Positions 1-31,804 of a stretch of DNA of 31,804 nt are shown here, piece after piece (the first letter of the stretch is position 1; each line of letters starts with the position of its first letter). Made by a program: the position numbers and the translations under genes. The stretch comes from a virus, in IMG/VR virus record IMGVR_UViG_3300034418_010257, positions 1 to 31,804 of that record; one strand, written 5' to 3'. The notes under the pieces were generated by a model. That model saw nothing but the letters and a program-made list of their open reading frames with translations, did not search any database and had not been told where the DNA came from.

Positions 1-736
1 GCGAGCGCGCAAGGTCGGCGCCCCAGCATACCGGCTCGGCCGACGACACCGGGCCGACGCAAGCCGCAACCGCGTCAAGCCCGAACGGGTTGCCGCCGTC
101 ATCCGAAGGTTCGGCAAGGTAGAGTTCGCGGAACACGTGATCCGGCAACACCCGCTTTGCGTCTTCGATTTCGGCGCGGTCAACGACACCGCCGACCACG
201 GCATCCCATGCGGTGAGCCGCGCAAAATGGTGGTCCGGCTCACCGGCTTCGGCGGCGCGCGCTAACCGATAGTGCCAGTTGCTTCGGCCTCGCACGTTGC
301 CGATTGCGCGAATCGGTCCGCGCGTTGCGGTGAGCGTTGACCGGACGGCAAACCACGCTTCGTCACGGCAACGGCTCGCTTCGTCAATGACCGCCGAGCG
401 CACATCTTCACCGAATAGGTTGTCAGGCTGTTCACCGCTTCGGAATGCCCAACGCGCGCCGTTGACCAATCCGATTTCGAGCGTTGAACGCGACTTCGAA
501 ACGACCAGCGGCCGCGGTAGCATGCCGAGCGCGCGTTCATACGCCATGCGCGCTTGTGCATAGACCGGCGCAACCCACCAATGGACGCCGCCGTCTTCGA
601 TGACGCGGCCCATTTGCCACACCAAACAACCAAGCGTCTTGCCGGCCTTCGTGCTCGCTTCGATCACGACATAGCGCGCCGGATGGTAAATCGCTTCATG
701 CTGCGCGGGGTATAGCGCCGGGAGTCTAATCCGCAC
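1..736 (-). CDS. terL: Terminase large subunit, N-terminal part (runs off left edge)
   Basis: ATPase half of the DNA-packaging motor, which translocates phage DNA into the prohead and cuts it. The start is GTG at 736, overlapping the stop of the small terminase and preceded by GAAGG. No ATG lies near, so an ATG-only search would miss the gene. Seen: Walker A-like ASTKAGKT (residues 27-34), Walker B VIDEAS (116-121), a coupling-motif-like GNVRGRSNWHYR segment near 150, and the first nuclease-motif stretch WGADLARS at the window edge (about residues 238-245). The reading stops at base 1, one base into a codon. The matching nuclease C-terminus lies at the other end of the window (31550-31804), so both pieces are probably one gene of about 430-460 residues. 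Family call is confident; total length is an estimate. Confidence 0.93.
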   Translation of the reverse strand, partial: MRIRLPALYPAQHEAIYHPARYVVIEASTKAGKTLGCLVWQMGRVIEDGGVHWWVAPVYAQARMAYERALGMLPRPLVVSKSRSTLEIGLVNGARWAFRSGEQPDNLFGEDVRSAVIDEASRCRDEAWFAVRSTLTATRGPIRAIGNVRGRSNWHYRLARAAEAGEPDHHFARLTAWDAVVGGVVDRAEIEDAKRVLPDHVFRELYLAEPSDDGGNPFGLDAVAACVGPVSSAEPVCWGADLARS

Positions 737-1121
737 CGGCCTTCACCGGGCTTGGTACTTCAACCGTCAAGACAACCGCGCCGGTGACTTCGGCGCCCTG
801 TTCGTCAAGGCCAAGCAACCGCGCGCGGCGTTCCATGATGCGAATGGCCGCGGCAATCGCCTTTGCGCCGTCGGCGTCACCGTCGGCAAGCATTTCTTCG
901 GCGCGGCGCCAAAGCCGATCAAGGCGCGCAAGTTCAACCGTTCGAACATCGGCCGCGGTTTCGGCGTAGCTTTCACGATGGTCGGCAAGCGCGTCGGCCA
1001 CGTCTCGAAACGCCGTCTTGACGTCAACGCCGGTTGCTTTGGCAATCGCGCGAAACGTCCAACCCATTGACCGCAATTCGAGCGCGCGCGCCATCCTTTC
1101 TTGTCGCTTCTGTGTTCTCAC
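726..1121 (-). CDS. terS: Terminase small subunit
   Basis: DNA-recognition subunit of the packaging terminase, about 131 aa. I choose GTG at 1121 because it forms a GTGA overlap with the ruvC-like stop (1118-1120) and has AAAGGGGG just upstream. An ATG at 1151 is possible but lacks such a site. Residues 1-40 contain a helix-turn-helix (AIAKATGVDVKTAFRDV), followed by a long charged helical stretch rich in Glu and Arg that would serve oligomerisation, then a short beta-like tail. It is directly followed by terL with an 11-base overlap, the usual order. The family is diverse, so the assignment rests on the HTH plus coil layout and on position. Confidence 0.85.
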   Translation of the reverse strand: MRTQKRQERMARALELRSMGWTFRAIAKATGVDVKTAFRDVADALADHRESYAETAADVRTVELARLDRLWRRAEEMLADGDADGAKAIAAAIRIMERRARLLGLDEQGAEVTGAVVLTVEVPSPVKAGAD

Positions 1122-1564
1122 GTTGCCCCCTTTGCGTTGCGCAGCTGCCAACCGTACCAGGCCAACAACACGGCATCGGCTTCGCCTTCGCCAAGTTCAA
1201 AGCCGGCAATTTCTTCGGCGGCCGCTTTGAGTCTCGCCTTGTGCGACGCGCGGCCGGTACGGCGCGAAGCCAAGCCGAGCGCCGATTGCCAGCGCCGCGG
1301 GTCAACGTCGAACCGCCGGACGCCATCAAGCGCGACGTCAAGCCGGCCGAGTTCGACACCAATGGCATGCGAAGACGCGCGGCCGTGCGATTGCAGCAAC
1401 AACGGCCGCTCAACATACCATGACGACACGGCACACGAAGCGCGCGCTTCCTTTGCGCAGCGCCAAAGCGGTGAACGCTTCGGTTGCGCTTGCCAAGTCT
1501 GCCACGTCTCACCGTCGAACACGGCAACGCCGCCGCGCTGGCCTATGTCAACCCCGGCAATCAT
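1118..1564 (-). CDS. RuvC-like Holliday junction resolvase
   Basis: Predicted crossover-junction endonuclease, 148 aa, which would resolve branched replication or recombination DNA before packaging. RNase H-like acidic residues are placed as in RuvC: D6 in the GVDIG strand, E52 in YVERP, and E128/D130 in GEADAVLLAWYG, with the HKARLKAAAEEI helix before the last acidic pair. It is the first gene of the leftward (late) unit, ahead of the terminase genes. The start is ATG 1564. The open frame extends further upstream into the operator array, but that part reads as non-conserved sequence made from repeats. No Shine-Dalgarno precedes 1564, and a promoter-like -10 lies 6 bases upstream, so a leaderless message is possible. 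Confidence 0.85.
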   Translation of the reverse strand: MIAGVDIGQRGGVAVFDGETWQTWQAQPKRSPLWRCAKEARASCAVSSWYVERPLLLQSHGRASSHAIGVELGRLDVALDGVRRFDVDPRRWQSALGLASRRTGRASHKARLKAAAEEIAGFELGEGEADAVLLAWYGWQLRNAKGAT

Positions 1565-1570
1565 GCGCCG

Positions 1571-1599
1571 ATGATACGCGCGCCGGCTCGAGCGCGCAA
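1571..1599 (-). promoter_or_regulatory. Putative leftward (late) promoter
   Basis: Read on the minus strand this is TTGCGC-N17-TATCAT (-35 at 1594-1599, -10 at 1571-1576). The -10 matches consensus at 5 of 6 positions, the -35 at 3 of 6. A GTGGGGCA half-site ends 3 bases upstream of the -35. The predicted start falls on or next to ATG 1564, which would make the ruvC-like message leaderless. Sequence-based prediction only. Confidence 0.5.
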
Positions 1600-1660
1600 G
1601 CCTGCCCCACCGTGCCCCACTATGGTGGGGCAGAGCTAACCCGCCGACACCGTTGAACAA

Positions 1661-1923
1661 ATCGCCGTGAAACATAAAACCGTGCCCCACCGGGGTGGGG
1701 CAGCGCAACCCTTTGCAATCGTTGCGGTTTTCGCCGTGAAACATCGAAATGCCCCACTTCCCGCACCTATACGTTGCATGAGCCTTGCGCGTGCGCGCAC
1801 CCGCGCGCGTATAGGGATATGTTTTCGTGAAATAGTGGGGCATTTGATTCAATATATATATATACAACAATCATTTCATACACTTACGCCGCCCCACCCC
1901 GGTGGGGCACGACTTTCGCGAAA
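1661..1923. repeat. Second repeated motif, TTTCG(N)GAAA type
   Basis: A second short motif recurs inside the array. TCGCCGTGAAACAT is repeated exactly at 1662-1675 and 1731-1744, each copy 5-7 bases before a TGCCCCAC half-site. Palindrome-like relatives TTTCGTGAAA (1823-1832) and TTTCGCGAAA (1914-1923) lie in the right half next to GTGGGGCA sites. The second left copy reads TTTCGCCGTGAAA. A second DNA-binding protein or a composite site is possible. Confidence 0.55.
1843..1885. other. AT-rich island with (TA)n tract
   Basis: About 43 bases of markedly AT-rich sequence, including an ATATATATATATA run near 1852-1864, in an otherwise GC-rich genome, inside the repeat array. It could be a DNA unwinding element or promoter DNA. 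It holds no gene. Confidence 0.5.
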
Positions 1924-2000
1924 ACTGCCAAATTCGCCAACAACGGCGGCAAGTTACGCGCCGCCCCACCCCAGTGGGGCACCGTGGGGCATTTTGGACA

Positions 2001-2029
2001 TTGACAACCCATTGACCGGACGCTATCCT
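2001..2029 (+). promoter_or_regulatory. Rightward (early) promoter
   Basis: TTGACA (2001-2006), a 17-base spacer and TATCCT (2024-2029): a perfect -35 and 4 of 6 in the -10. The start would fall near 2036, 31 bases before the first gene of the rightward unit. A GTGGGGCA half-site (1984-1991) ends 9 bases upstream of the -35, and a full palindrome lies just before that, so the array probably controls it. Confidence 0.75.
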
Positions 2030-2066: not shown

Positions 2067-2309
2067 ATGGTTCACGAATGGAAGCGAAGCGGCCGCGTTG
2101 CCGCTGTTGAGTTGGGTGACCGTGACGACGGCAAGCGGTTCGCGCTGGTCACGGTTCACGATGACGGGACGGTTTCGGCCGCGACGCCGCATGACCTGGC
2201 CAACTTCGGCCAACGTCGCCGGCCGTGGTCGGTTGCCGGTGTTGAGTCGGTTGCATCACTTCGGTCGCGCGAAGCGGCCGCCAAAGCATTCGCGAGGTTG
2301 ACGGCATGA
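2067..2309 (+). CDS. Small hypothetical early protein
   Basis: 80 aa, first gene of the rightward unit, with GGAGGA at 2053-2058 well spaced before ATG 2067. It is charged and soluble. The N-terminal half reads like a small antiparallel sheet (WKRSGRVAAVELG, RFALVTVHDDGTVSA), then a proline/arginine turn and a short C-terminal helix. There is no signal peptide, membrane segment or motif that I recognise. It overlaps the next gene by ATGA. First position after the operator array suggests an immediate-early role such as regulation, but this is inference only. Confidence 0.75.
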   Translation: MVHEWKRSGRVAAVELGDRDDGKRFALVTVHDDGTVSAATPHDLANFGQRRRPWSVAGVESVASLRSREAAAKAFARLTA

Positions 2310-3196
2310 GGGTTCAACGCGAGGAGGTCATTGCAGCGATTCACAAGCAGCGCGGGGAGTTCATGACCGCCGACGTTGCCGCGACGCTTGGCGTTCATTC
2401 GCGCCGGGTGTCGGGTCACATGGAATCGCTTGGCGACGCTGGCCAATTGAAGCGCGTTCGCATGGAAAGCGGCCGCTATATTTGGCGGCACGGTTCAAAT
2501 TGGTACGTGCCGTGTGAACAGGTTGCCGACGAAGTGTTGACGGCTTGCGCGCAGCTTGCCGCGCCGTTCACGTCGGCCGACGTGACCGAAGCGACGGGCT
2601 TGAACCCGTTGAGCGCGGCAACGGCGCTTGATTCGTTGCGCCGTCGCGGCAAGCTGGTCGCGGCGCCGCGAGAAGGGTTGCGCCGGCGCTATACGTTGCC
2701 GACGCCGGACGGTGCCGAATGGTTGCCGACGAACGCGGCCGCTGAACGGCTCGGCATTCACCGGCGCACGTTGCAGCGCCGAGCGAAGCTCGAGAGACTG
2801 CGTTCATTCCTTTCAGACGGGCTGGACGGTGCCGACGACGACGAGATAGCCGAGTACCTGTCCGCGCGGCTTGGCGACCCTGCAGACGCCGTTCGGTCGC
2901 TTCGAACGGCTGCAGCGGACATGACACGCTATGCTCGGACTGGCGAACGAGAGGCGATCCGGGCCCAGCCGGACGACGCCGAATGGTTGCCGACGAACGC
3001 GGCCGCTGAACGGCTCGGCATTCACCGGCGCACGTTGCAGCGCCGCGCAAGGTCCGGCGAGTTTTGGACGCGAACCGGGGCAAACGGCGCGACTGAATAT
3101 CTGCTTGAGGCCGAAGCCGAAACCGAAGCGCCGAACATCGCGCGCGCGTTGGAGCTTGCGCGCGAATTGATTGCCGCGTTGGAGGCCGCACGATGA
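2306..3196 (+). CDS. Multi-helix-turn-helix DNA-binding protein with internal repeat
   Basis: 296 aa. Residues 1-60 resemble a winged helix (VIAAIHKQRGEFMTADVAATLGVH, then a wing ending GRYIW). Residues 70-130 resemble a second one (TSADVTEATGLNPLSAATALDSL, wing LRRRYTL). Residues 137-159 and 225-247 are two identical excisionase/MerR-type HTH segments (WLPTNAAAERLGIHRRTLQR). They are separated by an unrelated acidic helical stretch (160-224). The C-terminal 20 residues form an Ala/Leu/Glu helix fit for oligomerisation. The two identical HTHs are identical in DNA too, indicating recent duplication. It lies immediately after the palindrome array and early promoter, so I infer it binds the array as regulator or origin protein. 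The start ATG 2306 overlaps the previous stop. No known named family is claimed. Confidence 0.85.
   Translation: MRVQREEVIAAIHKQRGEFMTADVAATLGVHSRRVSGHMESLGDAGQLKRVRMESGRYIWRHGSNWYVPCEQVADEVLTACAQLAAPFTSADVTEATGLNPLSAATALDSLRRRGKLVAAPREGLRRRYTLPTPDGAEWLPTNAAAERLGIHRRTLQRRAKLERLRSFLSDGLDGADDDEIAEYLSARLGDPADAVRSLRTAAADMTRYARTGEREAIRAQPDDAEWLPTNAAAERLGIHRRTLQRRARSGEFWTRTGANGATEYLLEAEAETEAPNIARALELARELIAALEAAR
2714..2781 (+). repeat. 68-bp exact direct repeat, copy 1
   Basis: Identical to 2978-3045, in the same reading frame (264-base offset), encoding the first excisionase-like HTH of the gene at 2306. Third codon positions are identical as well, so the copies have had little time to diverge or are kept alike by recombination. 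Confidence 0.97.
2978..3045 (+). repeat. 68-bp exact direct repeat, copy 2
   Basis: Second copy of the HTH-coding repeat at 2714-2781. The DNA between the copies (about 2786-2960) uses CTG and GAG codons more than its surroundings, suggesting an inserted segment flanked by the duplication. Confidence 0.97.
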
Positions 3197-4800: not shown

Positions 4801-5930
4801 CCGTTACAATAGGCGATTGCCTCGACACGTTGCGCGGTATGCCGGACGCGAGCGTTGACGCGGTTGTTACCGACCCGCCGTATGGACTCGGGCGCGAGCC
4901 TGACCCGCGCGAGGTGCTCGCGGCGTGGCTTGACGGCGAGGCGTATCAGCCGGGCGGGCGCGGATTCATGGGCAAGGCCTGGGATGCCTTCGTCCCGTCG
5001 CCGGTCGTCTGGTCGGAGTGTCACCGCGTGCTCAAGCCTGGCGGCCATTTGCTCGCGTTCGCCGGGTCGCGAACCTATGATTGGATTGCACTTGGCGTGC
5101 GGCTCGCGGGGTTCGAGGTTCGGGATCAACTGATGTGGATTTACGGGTCCGGGTTCCCGAAGTCGCACAACCTGAAAGGCGAGCACGAAGGCTGGGGCAC
5201 CGCGCTGAAGCCAGCGCACGAACCGATTGTCATGGCCCGCAAGCCGCTGGTCGGCACCGTCGCGCACAACGTGACGACGCACGGGACCGGGGCGATCAAT
5301 GTGGACGGGTGCCGGGTGGGGAGTGAGCCGATCTCACAGCACGGAAGAACTGGCGACAGATACGGGTTTGCATCGCCTGAACCCGCGGGCCGTGCATGGG
5401 TCGGCCGCTGGCCCGCCAACGTACTACACGACGGCTCGCCCGAGGTTGTGGCGGGGTTCCCGGTGACGGGGCCTAGCAAATCAGGCAGGAGAGGGGAGCG
5501 AGCTGGGACTGTCACAAATTTCGGAGGGTCTGACGGTGTTCGCGGGCACGATGACACCGGGGGCAGCGCCGCCCGTTTCTTCTACTCTGCCAAAGCGAGC
5601 CGCGCCGAGCGCGAGCGCGGGTTGACGCACACCAAAGGCGAGCGCCGCAACATACACCCGACCGTCAAAAATGTCGCCGTCATGCGTTGGCTTGTACGGC
5701 TCGTGACGCCGCCGGCCGGCGTTGTACTAGACCCGTTCACCGGAAGCGGCACAACCGGGATTGCATGCGCGCTTGAAGGGTTTGATTTTGTCGGTTGCGA
5801 ATTGTCGCCCGAATATGCCGAGATTGCGCGCGCGCGAATCGCGCACGCAGTCGCGCGCCCGCATGAATGGGAACCCGACGCCGACAAGCCCGACGAACCC
5901 AATGAAGGCCAACTTGATATGTTCAAATGA
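4797..5930 (+). CDS. DNA N6-adenine or N4-cytosine methyltransferase (beta type)
   Basis: 377 aa, ATG overlapping the previous stop. It transfers a methyl group to an exocyclic amino group of a DNA base. The catalytic motif IV DPPY (about residues 26-29) comes before the SAM-binding motif I DPFTGSGTT (about 311-319), which is the beta-class order. KPGGHLLAFAGSRT follows motif IV. Residues 170-275 form the variable region. The C-terminus is acidic with a D-E-P-N-E-G-Q-L-D-M-F tail. Codon style changes inside the gene: about 4880-5640 favours CTC/GAG and holds three of the window's few GATC sites, whereas the two ends match the rest of the phage. This hints at a recombined central segment. Target base and sequence cannot be told from sequence alone. 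Confidence 0.93.
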   Translation: MTVTIGDCLDTLRGMPDASVDAVVTDPPYGLGREPDPREVLAAWLDGEAYQPGGRGFMGKAWDAFVPSPVVWSECHRVLKPGGHLLAFAGSRTYDWIALGVRLAGFEVRDQLMWIYGSGFPKSHNLKGEHEGWGTALKPAHEPIVMARKPLVGTVAHNVTTHGTGAINVDGCRVGSEPISQHGRTGDRYGFASPEPAGRAWVGRWPANVLHDGSPEVVAGFPVTGPSKSGRRGERAGTVTNFGGSDGVRGHDDTGGSAARFFYSAKASRAERERGLTHTKGERRNIHPTVKNVAVMRWLVRLVTPPAGVVLDPFTGSGTTGIACALEGFDFVGCELSPEYAEIARARIAHAVARPHEWEPDADKPDEPNEGQLDMFK

Positions 5931-6134: not shown

Positions 6135-7775
6135 TTGTATAGCAACGAATGGGGCGGATTGCAAGCCCGCCGATGGCAAGCCGACGCGCTTGCCGCAATC
6201 GAGTCGCGCGACGATGACCGCGGATTGGTTGTCGCCGTTATGGGTGCCGGCAAATCGGTCTTGTTGGCCGAGCTTTGCGCGCGCACCGACGGCCGCGTCA
6301 TCGTCACCGCGCCGACGCTTCGCCTTGTGCATCAGCTGGCCGCGACGCTCGAACGCCGCGGCTTGGACGTCGGCAAGGTTTGCACCGGTGAGCGCGACTT
6401 GACGCGCCGCGTCACGGTTTGCACCTATGACCCGCGCACCCTCGCACGGGTTGCCGGTGCGATTCACCGGCCGGCGCTTTGGATTGCCGACGAAGCGCAC
6501 CGGACCAACACCCGCGGCGTTGCCGAATGGCGTGCCGAAGTCGAACCGGCGCGGTCAATCGGATTCACCGCGACGCCGTATCTTGCCGACGCCGATGATG
6601 ACCTCAAACTTTGGTCATCGGTCTGGTTCCACTATTCACTGGCCGACGCGGTTGCCGATGGCGTCATCCTACTTCCGACGTTCGGCGGGGTTCGTTGCGA
6701 CGCCGACGACCTTGTTGCCGGCGCGCGGCTTTGGTTGGCCGATGCCGACGGGCCGGGTGTTTTCTCGGCGGCAACGTGCGCCGACGCCGACGCGCTTGCG
6801 GCCGAGCTTGACGGCGTTGAATCGTTCCACAGCGGCCACAGCGCCGAAGACCGTGACGACAAGTTGCGCCGGCTTCAAGCCGGTGAGTTGCGCGCGATTG
6901 TTCACGTCGCTTGTCTGGTTGAAGGCGTTGACCTGCCTTGGCTTCGCTGGATTGGCCTCACTCACCCGCGCGGTTCGCGCGTCGCCTACGCGCAAGAAAT
7001 CGGCCGGGTTCTGCGAACGGCACCCGGCAAGACGTCGGTTCGCGTTTGGGATCCGTTCGGCGCGGCCGATGTTCACAACCTGCATGATGCCGCGGCGCTG
7101 GCCGACGCGCTTGAAGAATTCGATGCACCGGGACCGCCGGCGCTTGCGACGATGCGCGTTGAAGGCGACCAGATAACGGCCGTGTTTCGGCACGTTGCCG
7201 ATATGATACCGGCCGACCTGTTGCCGCTGAATTGGCGCGGCACGGTTGAACGGATGCGCGTTGATTTGGGTGACGGTGACCCGATAACCATTGAAGGCGG
7301 CCGCATGTATGACCCGCGGCCGCATGATGCGCCGGGGGTTCGGTACGTCCGGCACAATCTCGACATTGCGTTGGATATACCGCGCGAACGAATTGAAGTC
7401 ATCGCGCCGGTTGTGTCGGCCGACGAAGCCCTTGCGCGTTCGCTTGTTCTCGCATGCAGCGTTCACGGCCTTTGTGACGCCCTGCCTGATTGGGTGCGCG
7501 CTCGGCGCCGCGGCATTGACGGCGCGGCCAGCCTTGCGCGCGTTGAGTCGGTGCGGGTGTATCTGCGAAGCGCCGCGCGCAATGACCAACTGCGTTGGGT
7601 TCGCGAGCATTTGCCGGACGGCAATGGTCCGGCCTTGTCGTTGTGCCGTCGCATTTTGTACGATGACCGGCCGCCGCGGGTTGTGACGGCTTACGCCATC
7701 GGCTTGATTTGTGCCGCGCTGAACCGTGACGCCGAACGAACGAACGCGATTGCAAGGAGCTTGATCAATGGGTGA
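6135..7775 (+). CDS. Superfamily 2 DEAH-type helicase
   Basis: 546 aa from TTG 6135. DNA helicase/translocase of the type III restriction (Res)/UvsW-like SF2 group, probably used in origin or recombination remodelling. Motifs: Q-like RRWQADAL (12-19), I VMGAGKS (35-41), Ia TAPTLRLVHQL (58-68), II ADEAH (118-122), III GFTATPY (143-149), and VI YAQEIGRVLRT near 292-302. The C-terminal 180 residues show no familiar domain and may provide DNA binding or partner contact. The gene overlaps the primase-helicase gene by 8 bases, so both are probably made together for replication. Confidence 0.92.
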   Translation: MYSNEWGGLQARRWQADALAAIESRDDDRGLVVAVMGAGKSVLLAELCARTDGRVIVTAPTLRLVHQLAATLERRGLDVGKVCTGERDLTRRVTVCTYDPRTLARVAGAIHRPALWIADEAHRTNTRGVAEWRAEVEPARSIGFTATPYLADADDDLKLWSSVWFHYSLADAVADGVILLPTFGGVRCDADDLVAGARLWLADADGPGVFSAATCADADALAAELDGVESFHSGHSAEDRDDKLRRLQAGELRAIVHVACLVEGVDLPWLRWIGLTHPRGSRVAYAQEIGRVLRTAPGKTSVRVWDPFGAADVHNLHDAAALADALEEFDAPGPPALATMRVEGDQITAVFRHVADMIPADLLPLNWRGTVERMRVDLGDGDPITIEGGRMYDPRPHDAPGVRYVRHNLDIALDIPRERIEVIAPVVSADEALARSLVLACSVHGLCDALPDWVRARRRGIDGAASLARVESVRVYLRSAARNDQLRWVREHLPDGNGPALSLCRRILYDDRPPRVVTAYAIGLICAALNRDAERTNAIARSLING

Positions 7776-10182
7776 CCGACAATATTGGCGCGCGCTTGGC
7801 CTCGACAGCGCAACCGCGAACAAGCGGCCGAACGCCGAAGGGTTCTTCAAGGTGAAGGCGCTACACCGGCCCGACAAGAACCCTTCGTTATCGGTGCAAC
7901 CCGACGATGGTGACGGCGCCGGTTGGTTTCACGATTTCGGCACCGGTGAGCGCGGCACGTTGTACGAATATTGCCGGCAATGCGGCGTTGACACCGGCAC
8001 CGAAGACAAGCCGCCGGCAAAGCCGGAGCCGATGACGCTGGCCGAATGGGCCGCGGCACGCAAGTTGACGGCCGAAACGCTGGCCGACTTCGGCGTCACC
8101 GAAACCCGGACCGGTGAAATCCGATTCCCGACGCCTTGCGGCGTTGACCGGGTGCGCGGCATATCAACCGGCAAGTCGGCGCCGCGTTGGGCAAAGCGCG
8201 GCGGCATGGCGTGCGCGTATGGCATGGACGTCACCGCGTTCAATGACGGGCCGCTCTATCTCGTTGAAGGCGAACCGTCGGTTTGGGCATGCCATCAAGC
8301 CGGGGTTCGCGCCGTGTCGGCGCTGGTTGGCGCAACCGGTGACATTGGGCCGATTGTGGCCGAGCTTGTCAGCGACGGCGCCGAAATCCGCATTGCATAC
8401 GATGCCGACGCGGCCGGCAAGGCCGGCGCGGCCAAGGCGTTCGCGGCGCTTTCGGCGGCCGGCGCAACCGTTCGCATTGTCGAATTGCCGGCACGCAAGC
8501 GCGGATTTGACGTCGATGACTTGCACCGGGCCGAAGGGTCACGGCTTGCCGCGGCGCTTGATGACTTGTGCGGTGAAGACTCGCCGGAATTACCGCCGGG
8601 GTATGACTTGCCGAACGCGCTTGTTCGGGTTCTCGACAAGGACGCCGAATTGGTGGTTGCCGAATGCCGCATTGACGTCACGAACGTCGGCATTGACGTT
8701 GACGACGGCCGGCACGTTTGGCGCTTGGCATGGCATGGCAAATCCATTGACGTGCCGCGTTCAGACCTTGCGTCAACGCGGTCAATCGTCGCTTGGTCAG
8801 ATTATGGGTTGCCGGTTGACCAACACACGGCCGGTGAGTTGGTCCGGTATCTGACAGCCTACGAACAGCACAACCGGCAACGCATCACACGGCAAGAGAC
8901 AAGCGCGTCAACGGGCTGGTTCGGTGACTGTTACTTGCGCGGCAATCATCGGCACGGCCGAGCGTGCCCCTATTACCGGACCGGCGACGCCGGCCGCGAC
9001 CAATGGGTTGACGGCCTTGAAGCCGCCGGCAACGAATCGCTTTGGCATGCGGCGCTTGAACGCGCGCTTGCTCGGCCGGTTGTGCGGTTGATGATTTGCG
9101 GCGCGCTGGCATCGACATTGACGCAACGCGCCGGGTTGGAGGTTGCAGTCATCGACCTGGCCGGCACAACATCACAAGGCAAGACGTCGGCGCTGCGCGT
9201 CGCGTTGTCGGCGCTTGGCGACCCGTGGCGGTTGCTTCGGTCATGGGACACAACGCGAATTGCCGTTGAGCGCGCCGCCGCTTATTCGCGCGGGTTGACG
9301 CTGGCCTTTGACGACACAATGCGCGCGCGCAAAATCGAAGACGTCGCCGGCGCAATCTATGACGTGACCAGCGGCGTTTCGCGCGCGCGCGGTAGCAAGG
9401 CCGGCGGGTTGCAAGCGGCGCCGCGTTCGCATAGCTGGTTACTCTCAACCGGTGAAGGTCCAATCATCAACATGGCCGAAGGGTTCGGCGGTATCTGGTC
9501 GCGCGTCTTGACCGTGACGGCGCCGGCATGGGGAGGGGTTTCGGCCGACCTAGGCGTTGAAATCCGCGGCATGCTGAACGTGTTGCGCGAACATCATGGC
9601 CACGGGTTGCCGGCGCTGGTTGAACGGTTGGCGTCGGTTGCGCCTGCCGAGTTGCGCGCGCGTCATGCGGCGCTTGTCGATTCATTTGCGTCGCGCATCT
9701 ATGACCGGCACCCGGGACACGTTGCCGGCGACCGTATTGCGCAAGCGTTGGCCGCGCTCGAATTGACCGGCCGCGAATTCGGCGCGGCTTGCGGGTTTAC
9801 TGTCAACGATTGGGTTGACCGCTCAATAGCCGATGCCATCGCAAGCAAGTCTTCGAAAGCCGACCGTGCGATTGACGCGCTTGACGAAGTGTTGACCGCC
9901 GCGGCCGCGCAGCTGGGCCGCATCTTTCGCGCGCCGTCGCAAGCCGAGCCGCCGGCCGGTTGGATTGGCGCCGGTGAATGCGATGAATCCGGGTTCACCG
10001 AATTGGCGCTTGCGCCGGCGTTCGTGCGCGAAACCTTGCGCCGCGCGGGGTTTGAACCGGGTTCAATCGTTGCCTCATGGACTGAACGCGGTTGGCTTGT
10101 GCGCGACGGTAAGCGGTTGACGCATAAGGTGAAATGCGGTGACGGTCGGCCGCGGTTCTATAAATTCTGCAAATTGTCGTGA
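7768..10182 (+). CDS. Primase-helicase with TOPRIM and DUF927-like ATPase
   Basis: 804 aa. N-terminal 90 residues resemble the start of phage/plasmid primases (FFKVKALHRPDKNPSLSV, GWFHDF, GTLYEYCRQC). A TOPRIM domain lies at about 160-230: the acidic E in LYLVEGEPS and D-x-D in IAYDADAAGKAGAAKA. The C-terminal half is a DUF927-type helicase: Walker A TTSQGKTSALR (about 467-477), Walker B LTLAFDDT (about 511-518), then a sensor-like LLSTGEGPI. It would synthesise primers and unwind the fork. It is preceded by an SF2 helicase and followed at a distance by SSB in the same unit. ATG 7768 overlaps the previous stop. No DNA polymerase is visible, so host polymerase is presumably used. Confidence 0.9.
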   Translation: MGDRQYWRALGLDSATANKRPNAEGFFKVKALHRPDKNPSLSVQPDDGDGAGWFHDFGTGERGTLYEYCRQCGVDTGTEDKPPAKPEPMTLAEWAAARKLTAETLADFGVTETRTGEIRFPTPCGVDRVRGISTGKSAPRWAKRGGMACAYGMDVTAFNDGPLYLVEGEPSVWACHQAGVRAVSALVGATGDIGPIVAELVSDGAEIRIAYDADAAGKAGAAKAFAALSAAGATVRIVELPARKRGFDVDDLHRAEGSRLAAALDDLCGEDSPELPPGYDLPNALVRVLDKDAELVVAECRIDVTNVGIDVDDGRHVWRLAWHGKSIDVPRSDLASTRSIVAWSDYGLPVDQHTAGELVRYLTAYEQHNRQRITRQETSASTGWFGDCYLRGNHRHGRACPYYRTGDAGRDQWVDGLEAAGNESLWHAALERALARPVVRLMICGALASTLTQRAGLEVAVIDLAGTTSQGKTSALRVALSALGDPWRLLRSWDTTRIAVERAAAYSRGLTLAFDDTMRARKIEDVAGAIYDVTSGVSRARGSKAGGLQAAPRSHSWLLSTGEGPIINMAEGFGGIWSRVLTVTAPAWGGVSADLGVEIRGMLNVLREHHGHGLPALVERLASVAPAELRARHAALVDSFASRIYDRHPGHVAGDRIAQALAALELTGREFGAACGFTVNDWVDRSIADAIASKSSKADRAIDALDEVLTAAAAQLGRIFRAPSQAEPPAGWIGAGECDESGFTELALAPAFVRETLRRAGFEPGSIVASWTERGWLVRDGKRLTHKVKCGDGRPRFYKFCKLS

Positions 10183-29140: not shown

Positions 29141-31553
29141 GTTGCCCCCATACAACAAGCCAACCGCAGCGGCATCGGTCCGGGCCGCCGGCACATTCCT
29201 TGTCTGGTAAGACCATTGCGCGGTAATCGTCCAACTGCGCCGGAATCGCGAACGTTGTGCCGTCATATTCGGCGCAATGCGCGCAACGGTTGCCGTCAAG
29301 CACCGATGTTCGCATCACTTCAGTGATTACCAAGTCACTGGTCGCCAAGTCACCGGCCGCCGCAACGCGGCCTTCGGATTCAATGGCATTGCCAACCGCG
29401 AGCGCCGGCCGCGCCAAGCCGCCGGACGTAATGCGCGACGTGAACCCCTCTTCGGTGCCGCCGGCCGTCCATGCGGTTTCAACTTCGCCTTGCACCCGGT
29501 TCGCGATTTCATCGGCCGCAATGTCAATGCGCGGACCGATGCGCGAAAGGATGGCGTCGGCCGACGGCATGCCGCCGGGGCCGGCGCCTTGATTCGGGCC
29601 GACCGTCGGCAAGCCGGCGCGGCGTTGCGCTCGCTGTTCAGCCTTTGCCCAACCTTCAACCGCCGACGCGAGCGTTGACGCGAATGACGACACGGCGTCA
29701 CGATATTCGGCAAGGAATTCGTCATATACCGCCGCGTTTGCGTCCGGGTTCCAACCGTCGGCAACCGCGGACCATACCGCCGCGCGGTGACGCTCGGCAA
29801 TTTCACCGATTGACGCCTCAACCCGCGAATCGAGCGCCGAGCGTTGCGCGTCATTCGATGCCCAAGCAACCGCGCATTCAACGCCGTCAAGCGGCCGCCA
29901 AGTCTGAAACGGCACGCCATCGGCGCCGATGACTTCAACACGGTCGGCAAGACAACATTCGCGCGCCTCGACACCGGCAAGCCGGTCTTCGGCCCAACGC
30001 CGCGCGGGGTTGCCACCCCACAAACCCCAAGCAATCCGGCCGGCCGACGGGAACCCCGGTTCACCGGGCCGGAACCCTTCGGCGTCGGTGTCGGATTCGT
30101 GCCGGTCAAAGTAGGCTTTGATCCGTTTGAGCGTATCAAGCGACACCGGCCGCCGATTCTTCAAGTCGCGCGCGCGCGCAACGCCGACTTCGGTGCCGCC
30201 GCGGCCATGTTCGCGGCGCCATGCAAGCGCCGTTTCGGCTTCGTCGGCCACACCCTTCGGCACCGGGAACGATTCATCGGCAAACGTCGCCGGCGCGGGT
30301 GCCGTGCGCGCTTCGTCGCGCGCTTCGCGCGGGTCAAGGCCAAGTTCTGCGCGCATTCGGTCTTCGTCGGCGGCTTGCCATGACACAAGGCCGGCCGCGG
30401 CCGCTTGCGCCAACATCGTGACGCGCTCGGCCGTGTTGGCCGATTCCTCGCCAATCGTCCGCAAGACCGGAACGCGGCCGGCATAACCGATGCGACGCGC
30501 AACCCATTCGCCAACGCGGCGGCCGAATTCGGCAAGCAGCAAGTCAAGTTGCGCGGTTGTCTGCCAACCGTCGGCCGCTTCAACTTGTTGGCCGAGCGCA
30601 AGCGAACCCCGCGACGAATAGCCAAGCGAATACAGCGCGCGGCCTAGCGCGTTGTCAATCTGTGCATCAAGGTATTCGAGCGCCGAGCGCGGGTCACCGG
30701 CCGCGCCGCCGGGGTATGACAAATCGACTTCATAGCCAGGCGGCATCAGCAACCACGGCGCCGCGCCGGACTGCCACGCTTCAAGCGTGTCAAGCATGCG
30801 GTCACGGTCGGCCGGGGTTTCGGCCATCGGCGCGGACACCTTCGCAACGCCGGCGCCGAAATAGCTGTTGCGCTCGGCCGCGGTTAGAAGCGAAATCCAA
30901 CGCTCAACAATGAACACAAGCGGCCGAAGAATCGACACGCCTTCCCATTCGCCAGGGGCGCCGCCGTGCTTCAGATACACAAGACGGTCGGCCGGGATTT
31001 CGACATAACCCGTCGGCGTCGCTTGCGTCACCTTTGCGAGCCGTTGCCAAGTCGGCGGCGCGGCAACCCATGCCTGAACGCTTGAAGCGTGAACGGGGTA
31101 CAGTTCAAGCCGAAGGCCATCAAGCGAAGCCGTCCGGCGCGGCGCGGCGTCCGGCGCGCGAACGAAGCGGCATTCGGCAAGATAGTGGCCGGCAAGATAG
31201 TATTCGGCCAAGTCGGCGCCGAGCGATGACCAACCGCCGATGTTGTTTTCGGCGTCGGTGAAGACTTCGGCAAGCAGCGCGTCGAGGTCTTCGCGAAACG
31301 CGGTTTCGCTTGGCCGTTCGTCTTCAAGCGGCGCGAATTCAATGGCCGCCGAACCGATTGCAAGCGCAAGGTCACGGCACCCAACGGCAACGCGAGGATG
31401 GCCGCGACGCATCCGGTCAAGCTGGCCAGCGCCGCCGCCGGTGCCACGAAGCGCGCCGGGGTATAGTTGCGGCGTCGGGTCGCGCGAAGGCACGGCATAA
31501 CCGGCCGTTGACGAAGGCGACAACGCCGAACGCTTGTGTGCTCTATCGGTCAA
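29133..31553 (-). CDS. Portal-insert-MuF head morphogenesis fusion
   Basis: 806 aa from TTG 31553, overlapping the terminase stop (TTGA), with GGAG about ten bases upstream. Residues 40-410 are portal-like: IPADRLVYLKHGG, WEGVSILRPLVFIVERW, SALEYLDAQIDNALGRALYSLG. Residues 430-525 form a compact domain (KGVADEAETALAWRREHGRG, GVARARDLKNRRPVSLDTLK, PSAGRIAWGLWGGNPARRWA) that I recognise as recurring in phage proteins without a known role. Residues 570-806 are MuF-like, ending in a Cys cluster (CAHC 757-760, C787, CRC 794-796). The portal is the DNA channel; MuF is injected or assists assembly. These are normally separate genes, so the three-part fusion is unusual. Confidence 0.85.
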   Translation of the reverse strand: MTDRAHKRSALSPSSTAGYAVPSRDPTPQLYPGALRGTGGGAGQLDRMRRGHPRVAVGCRDLALAIGSAAIEFAPLEDERPSETAFREDLDALLAEVFTDAENNIGGWSSLGADLAEYYLAGHYLAECRFVRAPDAAPRRTASLDGLRLELYPVHASSVQAWVAAPPTWQRLAKVTQATPTGYVEIPADRLVYLKHGGAPGEWEGVSILRPLVFIVERWISLLTAAERNSYFGAGVAKVSAPMAETPADRDRMLDTLEAWQSGAAPWLLMPPGYEVDLSYPGGAAGDPRSALEYLDAQIDNALGRALYSLGYSSRGSLALGQQVEAADGWQTTAQLDLLLAEFGRRVGEWVARRIGYAGRVPVLRTIGEESANTAERVTMLAQAAAAGLVSWQAADEDRMRAELGLDPREARDEARTAPAPATFADESFPVPKGVADEAETALAWRREHGRGGTEVGVARARDLKNRRPVSLDTLKRIKAYFDRHESDTDAEGFRPGEPGFPSAGRIAWGLWGGNPARRWAEDRLAGVEARECCLADRVEVIGADGVPFQTWRPLDGVECAVAWASNDAQRSALDSRVEASIGEIAERHRAAVWSAVADGWNPDANAAVYDEFLAEYRDAVSSFASTLASAVEGWAKAEQRAQRRAGLPTVGPNQGAGPGGMPSADAILSRIGPRIDIAADEIANRVQGEVETAWTAGGTEEGFTSRITSGGLARPALAVGNAIESEGRVAAAGDLATSDLVITEVMRTSVLDGNRCAHCAEYDGTTFAIPAQLDDYRAMVLPDKECAGGPDRCRCGWLVVWGQRA

Positions 31554-31804
31554 ACGATGACGCTCCGTTTTGCCGGCATTCGCAAACGTGCCGTTCCATT
31601 GTTGTCAAGCGGCTTGCGAACGTCAAGCCCTTGTTTCGTATACCAGCGCCACGCAAGCGCAAGCGCGCAAACGGCGTCATCGTGCGCGCCGGCCGGCGCC
31701 GAGTATCGAACGCCAAGCCGCGCGGGTTGATATTCGTAGATTTCAAGTTCATTGCGCAAGACGCCATCAATCAACCCGACCTTGTTGCGCTGAATGCCGG
31801 CGGC
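31550..31804 (-). CDS. terL: Terminase large subunit, C-terminal part (enters from right edge)
   Basis: 84 aa, open to the right edge in frame from base 31804. It matches the end of the terminase nuclease domain: GLIDGVLRNELEIYEYQ, then GVRYSAPAGAHDDAVCALALAW, where HDD is the third acidic nuclease motif. It lacks the ATPase half, which is at 1-736 on the same strand. It ends at TGA, overlapping the portal start. The middle part (about 100-130 residues) is missing from the window. Confidence 0.88.
   Translation of the reverse strand, partial: AAGIQRNKVGLIDGVLRNELEIYEYQPARLGVRYSAPAGAHDDAVCALALAWRWYTKQGLDVRKPLDNNGTARLRMPAKRSVIV

Follow-up and report, generated by a model that had tools for sequence, protein, structure and literature searches.

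What is the function of the ordered array of GCCCCAC sites that separates the two divergently transcribed arms of a virus genome in the IMG/VR collection (record IMGVR_UViG_3300034418_010257)? The window, i.e. the whole stretch of 31,804 nucleotides that was analysed, carries this array in the 502 bp of intergenic DNA that separate a leftward gene (ATG at 1564) from a rightward gene at 2067. Beyond the resolvase gene, the left arm continues with a small HTH/terminase-type gene and then terL, and the right-arm genes form a module for replication and recombination, with products that comprise an HTH protein, two methyltransferases, a helicase, a Toprim-DUF927 primase-helicase, an exonuclease VIII-like protein, ERF and SSB. 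The left-end open reading frame of the window (1-736) encodes an N-terminal portion of the large terminase, and the right-end one (31550-31804) has a weak PHROG terminase match (HDDAVCALALAW) and resembles the C-terminus of that protein; the genome is probably nearly complete, with the cut of the record within terL. The features of the region, with the evidence for each and with reference to the related contigs L007 and L128 described below, are as follows.

1118-1564, minus strand: RuvC-like Holliday junction resolvase, first gene of the left arm (weak PHROG family match)
1571-1599, minus strand: leftward promoter-like site TTGCGC-17-TATCAT (read by eye; missed by the consensus scan)
1603-1632: outer left half-site triplet, +1604, +1614, -1625 (site positions, symmetry test)
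1683-1702: inner left palindrome, +1684, -1695 (site positions, symmetry test)
1750-1757, plus strand: innermost left half-site, C-rich strand directed at the centre (site positions, polarity survey)
1798-1816, minus strand: central element CCCTATACGCGCGCGGGTG, related to CTATACGCGCGAG of the origin gaps of other DUF927 phages (alignment and gap motif search)
1831-1880: likely DNA-unwinding element, 76% AT (lowest duplex stability of the record; same relative position in L007 and L128)
1835-1842, minus strand: innermost right half-site, C-rich strand directed at the centre (site positions, polarity survey)
1890-1909: inner right palindrome, +1891, -1902 (site positions, symmetry test)
1962-1991: outer right half-site triplet, +1963, -1974, -1984 (site positions, symmetry test)
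2001-2029, plus strand: rightward sigma70-type promoter TTGACA-17-TATCCT (consensus scan; kept in L007)
2067-2309, plus strand: 80-aa protein (orf80), first gene of the right arm (kept in L007 and L128)

The motif GCCCCAC occurs 14 times in the window, compared to 6.3 +/- 2.2 times in shuffled sequences, none of which (0 of 100) reached 14, and 12 of these 14 sites are clustered within 387 bp (1604-1990). The half-site reads TGCCCCAC in ten of the twelve cases and CGCCCCAC in the other two. Four GCCCCAC-N4-GTGGGGC palindromes, centred at 1622.5, 1692.5, 1899.5 and 1971.5, were recovered also by a pattern search of the genome itself; the twelve half-sites and the four palindromes with 4-base spacers of the preliminary description all stand where it had placed them. 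The four remaining half-sites (1604-1610, 1751-1757, 1835-1841 and 1984-1990), which had been taken for singles, are likewise correctly positioned, but the outer two lie only 10 bp from the outer palindromes and are better read as the third members of triplets; hence the layout is best written as 3+2+1 / 1+2+3, with a triplet, a pair and a single, i.e. six half-sites, on each side. The mirror pairing about 1796-1797 holds for all six pairs of half-sites, each with its midpoint at 1796 or 1797, i.e. within one base; full symmetry was reached in none of 2000 random placements (at most 8 of 12 sites) and in none of 2000 shuffled and flipped clusters (at most 10 of 12). The successive spacings are 10, 11, 59, 11, 56, 84, 56, 11, 61, 11 and 10, such that neighboring half-sites within the groups are 10-11 bp, or one helical turn, apart. 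No Rfam family matches within 1500-2100. In the half of the array that faces the resolvase gene, a perfect 14-bp repeat, TCGCCGTGAAACAT (ATGTTTCACGGCGA on the minus strand), separates groups of sites, at 1662-1675 and 1731-1744.

Among the contigs in IMG/VR, the array is found in the near-identical L005 and L006/L008/L137, in a 94% relative, L007, and in the distant L128, which is 76% identical to the window in the resolvase and 51% in the 80-aa protein. The 12-site layout of L128 is the same, with spacings of 11, 11, 59, 11, 57, 90, 57, 11, 58, 11 and 11, although the half-site has changed to GGCCCCRC and the outer triplets are oriented minus-minus-minus and plus-plus-plus, as opposed to plus-plus-minus and plus-minus-minus in the window. 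Thus, conservation of site spacing in the face of sequence divergence, which had been proposed as the check on the array, is borne out in both L007 and L128, and the persistence of the positions while the half-site sequence and part of the orientation change supports the notion that the array is a functional unit. A search of IMG/VR for two tandem GCCCCAC palindromes yielded no carriers besides the close relatives, the many single-palindrome matches elsewhere included none with arrays, and scans with orf80 and with the L128 motif retrieved no relatives beyond those already known. Two isolated GCCCCAC palindromes in L112 (7414-7431 and 7635-7652), each located closely 3' of a gene, resemble hairpins for termination or read-through and have no relation to the array. 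The right arm of L128 also encodes a pentapeptide-repeat-like protein (421-1164) with long ANLTDANLYRANL-type repeats.

The interior of the array is distinctive in its own right. A duplex-stability scan singles out 1831-1880 as the weakest 50-bp duplex among all 31,804 bases, and the minimum likewise falls inside the array in L007 and L128. This AT-rich stretch sits off-centre, between the half-sites 1835 and 1891, overlapping the former and stopping short of the palindrome at the latter. The palindrome GTGCGCGCAC (1791-1800), previously noted at the centre, is present in the window, but its exact form is kept neither in L007 nor in L128; what recurs near the centre (about 1804-1814 of the window, minus strand) is an element that reads CTATACGCGCG in the window and in L007 and TTATGCGCGCG in L128, and CTATACGCGCG occurs also between the inward-facing iteron sets of other DUF927 phages. 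A second conserved element, TGTTTCACGG, is asymmetric, with no counterpart in the mirrored half, and forms one of the longest unchanged stretches when the window is aligned with L007 and L128. When the genome is rotated as a circle, the cumulative GC skew is lowest at about 2049, adjoining the array, and highest near 10.5 kb; given that both extremes coincide with switches in gene direction, we rejected the skew as independent proof of an origin.

With respect to the protein that could read these sites, the genome encodes a single DUF927 primase-helicase, denoted P0001, with the following features.

7768-10182, plus strand: Toprim primase and DUF927 (MCM-like) helicase, P0001, proposed initiator (sequence and structure matches)
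9853-10179, plus strand: C-terminal winged-helix-like domain, residues 696-804, proposed half-site reader (AlphaFold model, structure match)

P0001 matches the SaPIbov1 replication initiator (8tch; phmmer 9e-20) and the SCCmec Cch helicase (5dgk) at the sequence level, and its AlphaFold (AF2) model, which has a low mean pLDDT of 58.6 that is higher in 410-680 and moderate in the C-terminal domain, aligns over residues 376-804 to both 8tch (Z 27.4) and 5dgk (Z of about 27). The modeled residues 696-804 superimpose on 5vfx, a winged-helix relaxosome protein bound to oriT DNA (Z 9.7; 90 of 100 residues; rmsd 2.9). Accordingly modeled, P0001 appears to possess the C-terminal DNA-binding-type winged-helix domain of a SaPI/PICI Rep, and a DUF927 Rep helicase is encoded in the array's own genome. 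The location of the array, 5.8 kb upstream of the DUF927 gene, is not that of such an origin, which lies directly 3' of rep, and no array was found downstream of the DUF927 gene of the window; therefore, we file the array as a variant that works like the SaPI/PICI type rather than as a plain member.

Sequence matches of P0001 include the DUF927 genes of THSA-485A, FP_Epona, phiRg507T2, Jekyll and the SaPI-type element PT1028. In all of these, phage-specific iterons (GGTAACCGA, AGGTGAAAC, GTAACA, GTTCCC) are located directly 3' of the DUF927 gene or of the next small gene, as sets of opposite orientation with AT-rich DNA between them. P0001 as a lone query retrieved only its own phage from viral contigs and nothing from genome contigs, and the DUF927 alignment is too divergent to serve as a scan query; the relatives gathered from viral and genome contigs amounted to 52 and 26 loci, respectively. 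The most-repeated 7-mer of the locus falls in the 700 bp downstream of the DUF927 gene in 50 of 68 loci; in L139, L141, L191 and L193, the arrays are somewhat farther from it. When sites are directed by their C-rich strand (or by an alphabetical key if C and G tie), 43 of 49 arrays have innermost sites that face inward, across a gap of about 75-120 bp, as they do in the window (84-bp gap) and in L128 (90-bp gap), such that inward polarity of the innermost sites is a general rule for DUF927 arrays. The gaps are AT-rich and several contain CTCGCGCGTATAGG-like elements; for 10 of 50 loci, the locus-best match to the central element falls inside the origin region, compared to 0-2 for shuffled consensus strings. 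Exact mirror symmetry was considered as a law of DUF927 origins and abandoned, only 4 of 55 surveyed arrays scoring 0.025 or less, and the 6+6 copy number is not general either, most surveyed arrays having 5-12 exact copies. The nearest other 6+6 layout is a well-formed origin-like array of TGTCCCA in L182 (about 5429-5740); another well-formed DUF927 origin-like array, of GCCCACC, is present in L149 (about 5385-5670).

A link between this survey and the window is provided by L063, which was retrieved in a search for the sites elsewhere: nine GCCCCAC sites directly adjoin the DUF927 gene of this unrelated contig. Among 36 survey proteins, L063/L138 has the C-terminus closest to that of the window protein (28% compared to 19% for the core) and is the sole protein with the same iteron. 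Across all pairs, similarity of the C-terminus and of the iteron are correlated beyond the core, with a partial r of 0.24 reached in 18 of 2000 permutations, and the correlation is absent among the most diverged pairs. Being this weak, the covariation is supporting rather than decisive, and we rejected it as stand-alone proof of binding. The C-terminus alignment shows a possible recognition position in the K-x-K stretch that precedes the last strand, with K in the GTAAC-reading proteins and V in those whose iterons are C/G runs (window, L138, L149, L135, L147).

Taken together, these comparisons indicate that the GCCCCAC array is very probably the replication origin of the phage, of the DUF927 (SaPI Rep) kind. 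This reading follows from the presence in the genome of a primase-helicase related to the SaPIbov1 initiator; from the equivalent arrays of other DUF927 phages, each with its own iteron and mostly adjacent to the DUF927 gene; from the occurrence of the same iteron beside the DUF927 gene of L063; from the enclosure of the stability minimum of the record, recurring in L007 and L128; and from the persistence of the layout between relatives while the half-site sequence drifts. Counting against it is the upstream placement of the array, unlike that in SaPIs and in most surveyed loci.

Two alternatives, both involving transcription, have to be weighed. In the first, which overlaps with the origin reading, the same initiator would also deliberately control the promoters, through autoregulation or coupling of replication to early transcription. 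We consider such a dual element a real possibility, albeit somewhat less likely than not: in the window and in L007, 3 and 9 bp separate the outermost half-sites from the two -35 boxes, but in L128, where the leftward promoter-like site (preserved in L007) has the form TTGCGT-17-TATAGT, the distance on the resolvase side is about 30 bp, and no clear promoter was read on the orf80 side. In the second, the array would be a mere operator at which a phage transcription factor, such as the HTH protein encoded at 2306-3196, switches both divergent promoters. The intergenic position between the arms, the promoter-like sites adjoining the array, and the gene for this protein just downstream, kept in L007 and with several helix-turn-helix matches in its product, all fit an operator. 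Nevertheless, we regard it as unlikely, given that the array encloses the lowest-stability DNA, that equivalent arrays elsewhere follow the DUF927 gene, and that the distance from array to promoter on the resolvase side varies from about 3-4 bp (window and L007) to the 30 bp of L128 under constant internal spacing, which argues that promoter control is not the selected function. Moreover, although the array is intact in L128, no homologue of the HTH protein is found at the syntenic place on its 6.2-kb contig; different genes lie there between orf80 and the next conserved gene, and the homologue could lie elsewhere in that genome. The protein 2306-3196, earlier singled out as the binder to assay, is thus unlikely to be essential, and the DUF927 helicase appears to be the better candidate. 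A purely structural role, with nested inverted repeats extruded as hairpins or a cruciform that signal, e.g., to the resolvase, to packaging or as a single-strand origin, is very improbable: the single-strand fold is far stabler than those of shuffles (z -8.3) and a resolvase-like gene adjoins the array, but such fold energy is a trivial consequence of site symmetry, isolated singles are unable to form local hairpins, and the outer triplets of L128 are direct repeats rather than palindromes at positions that are still kept.

Thus, of the two roles initially envisaged for a large nucleoprotein complex at this locus, that of an origin is well supported, and control of both arms is not, except possibly as a side effect. 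For the origin, we propose the following mechanism. The six half-sites on each of the two sides suggest, as the best reading, that the array would accommodate two initiator hexamers, with one half-site per subunit; the winged-helix domains of two DUF927 hexamers, on flexible linkers, would dock accordingly. The two rings, face to face, would distort and melt the AT-rich DNA at 1831-1880 beside the GC-rich CTATACGCGCG core, and one hexamer would be loaded per strand, leading to bidirectional replication with the fused Toprim domain as the primase. Bound initiator may secondarily damp early transcription, given that the two divergent promoters have their -35 boxes right next to the outer sites. 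More tentatively, and with somewhat less than even confidence, we suggest that the array is a literal blueprint of the double hexamer, with exactly one half-site per subunit (6+6), the positions set by ring geometry and the sequence and single-site orientation free, in an origin class common to tailed phages and satellites.

The parallels with known systems are instructive. SaPIbov1 Rep contains DUF927 and Cch is a relative of it. PICI origins always consist of two iteron sets flanking an AT-rich region, a plan published in 2018 as unique to PICIs (PMC6092414). The preliminary description knew of no phage control region with the exact layout of the array, a statement that holds, but the general plan is the one already published for SaPI/PICI origins. 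As in SaPIbov1, oppositely oriented sets of short iterons surround an AT-rich melting region in the window, and the genome encodes a DUF927 self-loading helicase that matches 8tch over the helicase and C-terminal parts. As a SaPI/PICI-type origin, the array would be a variant, with an exact 3+2+1 dyad, 11-bp palindromes and a GC-rich core beside the AT-rich element, located between divergent promoters and operons, far from the proposed initiator gene, in a tailed-phage genome with terminase and portal rather than an island, and with the primase domain fused to the helicase. The DUF927-side arrays of tailed phages (FP_Epona, THSA-485A, L063, L182 and others) share the inward sets and the AT-rich gap, and L063 shares even the central CTATACGCGCG element, but these arrays mostly have GTAAC-like half-sites, lie directly 3' of the gene and mostly are not exactly mirror-symmetric. 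In SCCmec elements, Cch is the DUF927 relative, and Cch2 binds short iterons downstream of its own gene (PMC7581432); unlike the window protein, Cch2 belongs to a different family of helicases, and three direct repeats are all that its putative origin contains.

Iteron plasmid and lambda-type origins also combine repeated initiator sites with an adjacent AT-rich element, but their iterons are direct, on one side, and a separate helicase is recruited, in contrast to the two mirrored sets in the window. Our literature search found no description of these phage origins, an absence that is not proof. Since the records of FP_Epona (49.6 kb) and THSA-485A (41.9 kb) are those of complete tailed phages, the restriction of the plan to PICIs looks too narrow.

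The array is not categorically new; it is moderately surprising and unusually testable. A symmetric 6+6 origin with fixed spacing and drifting sequence would be a map of the subunit seats for a homohexameric helicase that loads itself twice, face to face, and this map can be tested with one protein and one DNA fragment. Furthermore, these findings suggest that an origin plan reported for PICIs alone among bacterial replicons is common in DUF927-carrying tailed phages, which bears on the source of the satellites' replicons and offers a simple route to the origins of uncultivated phages.
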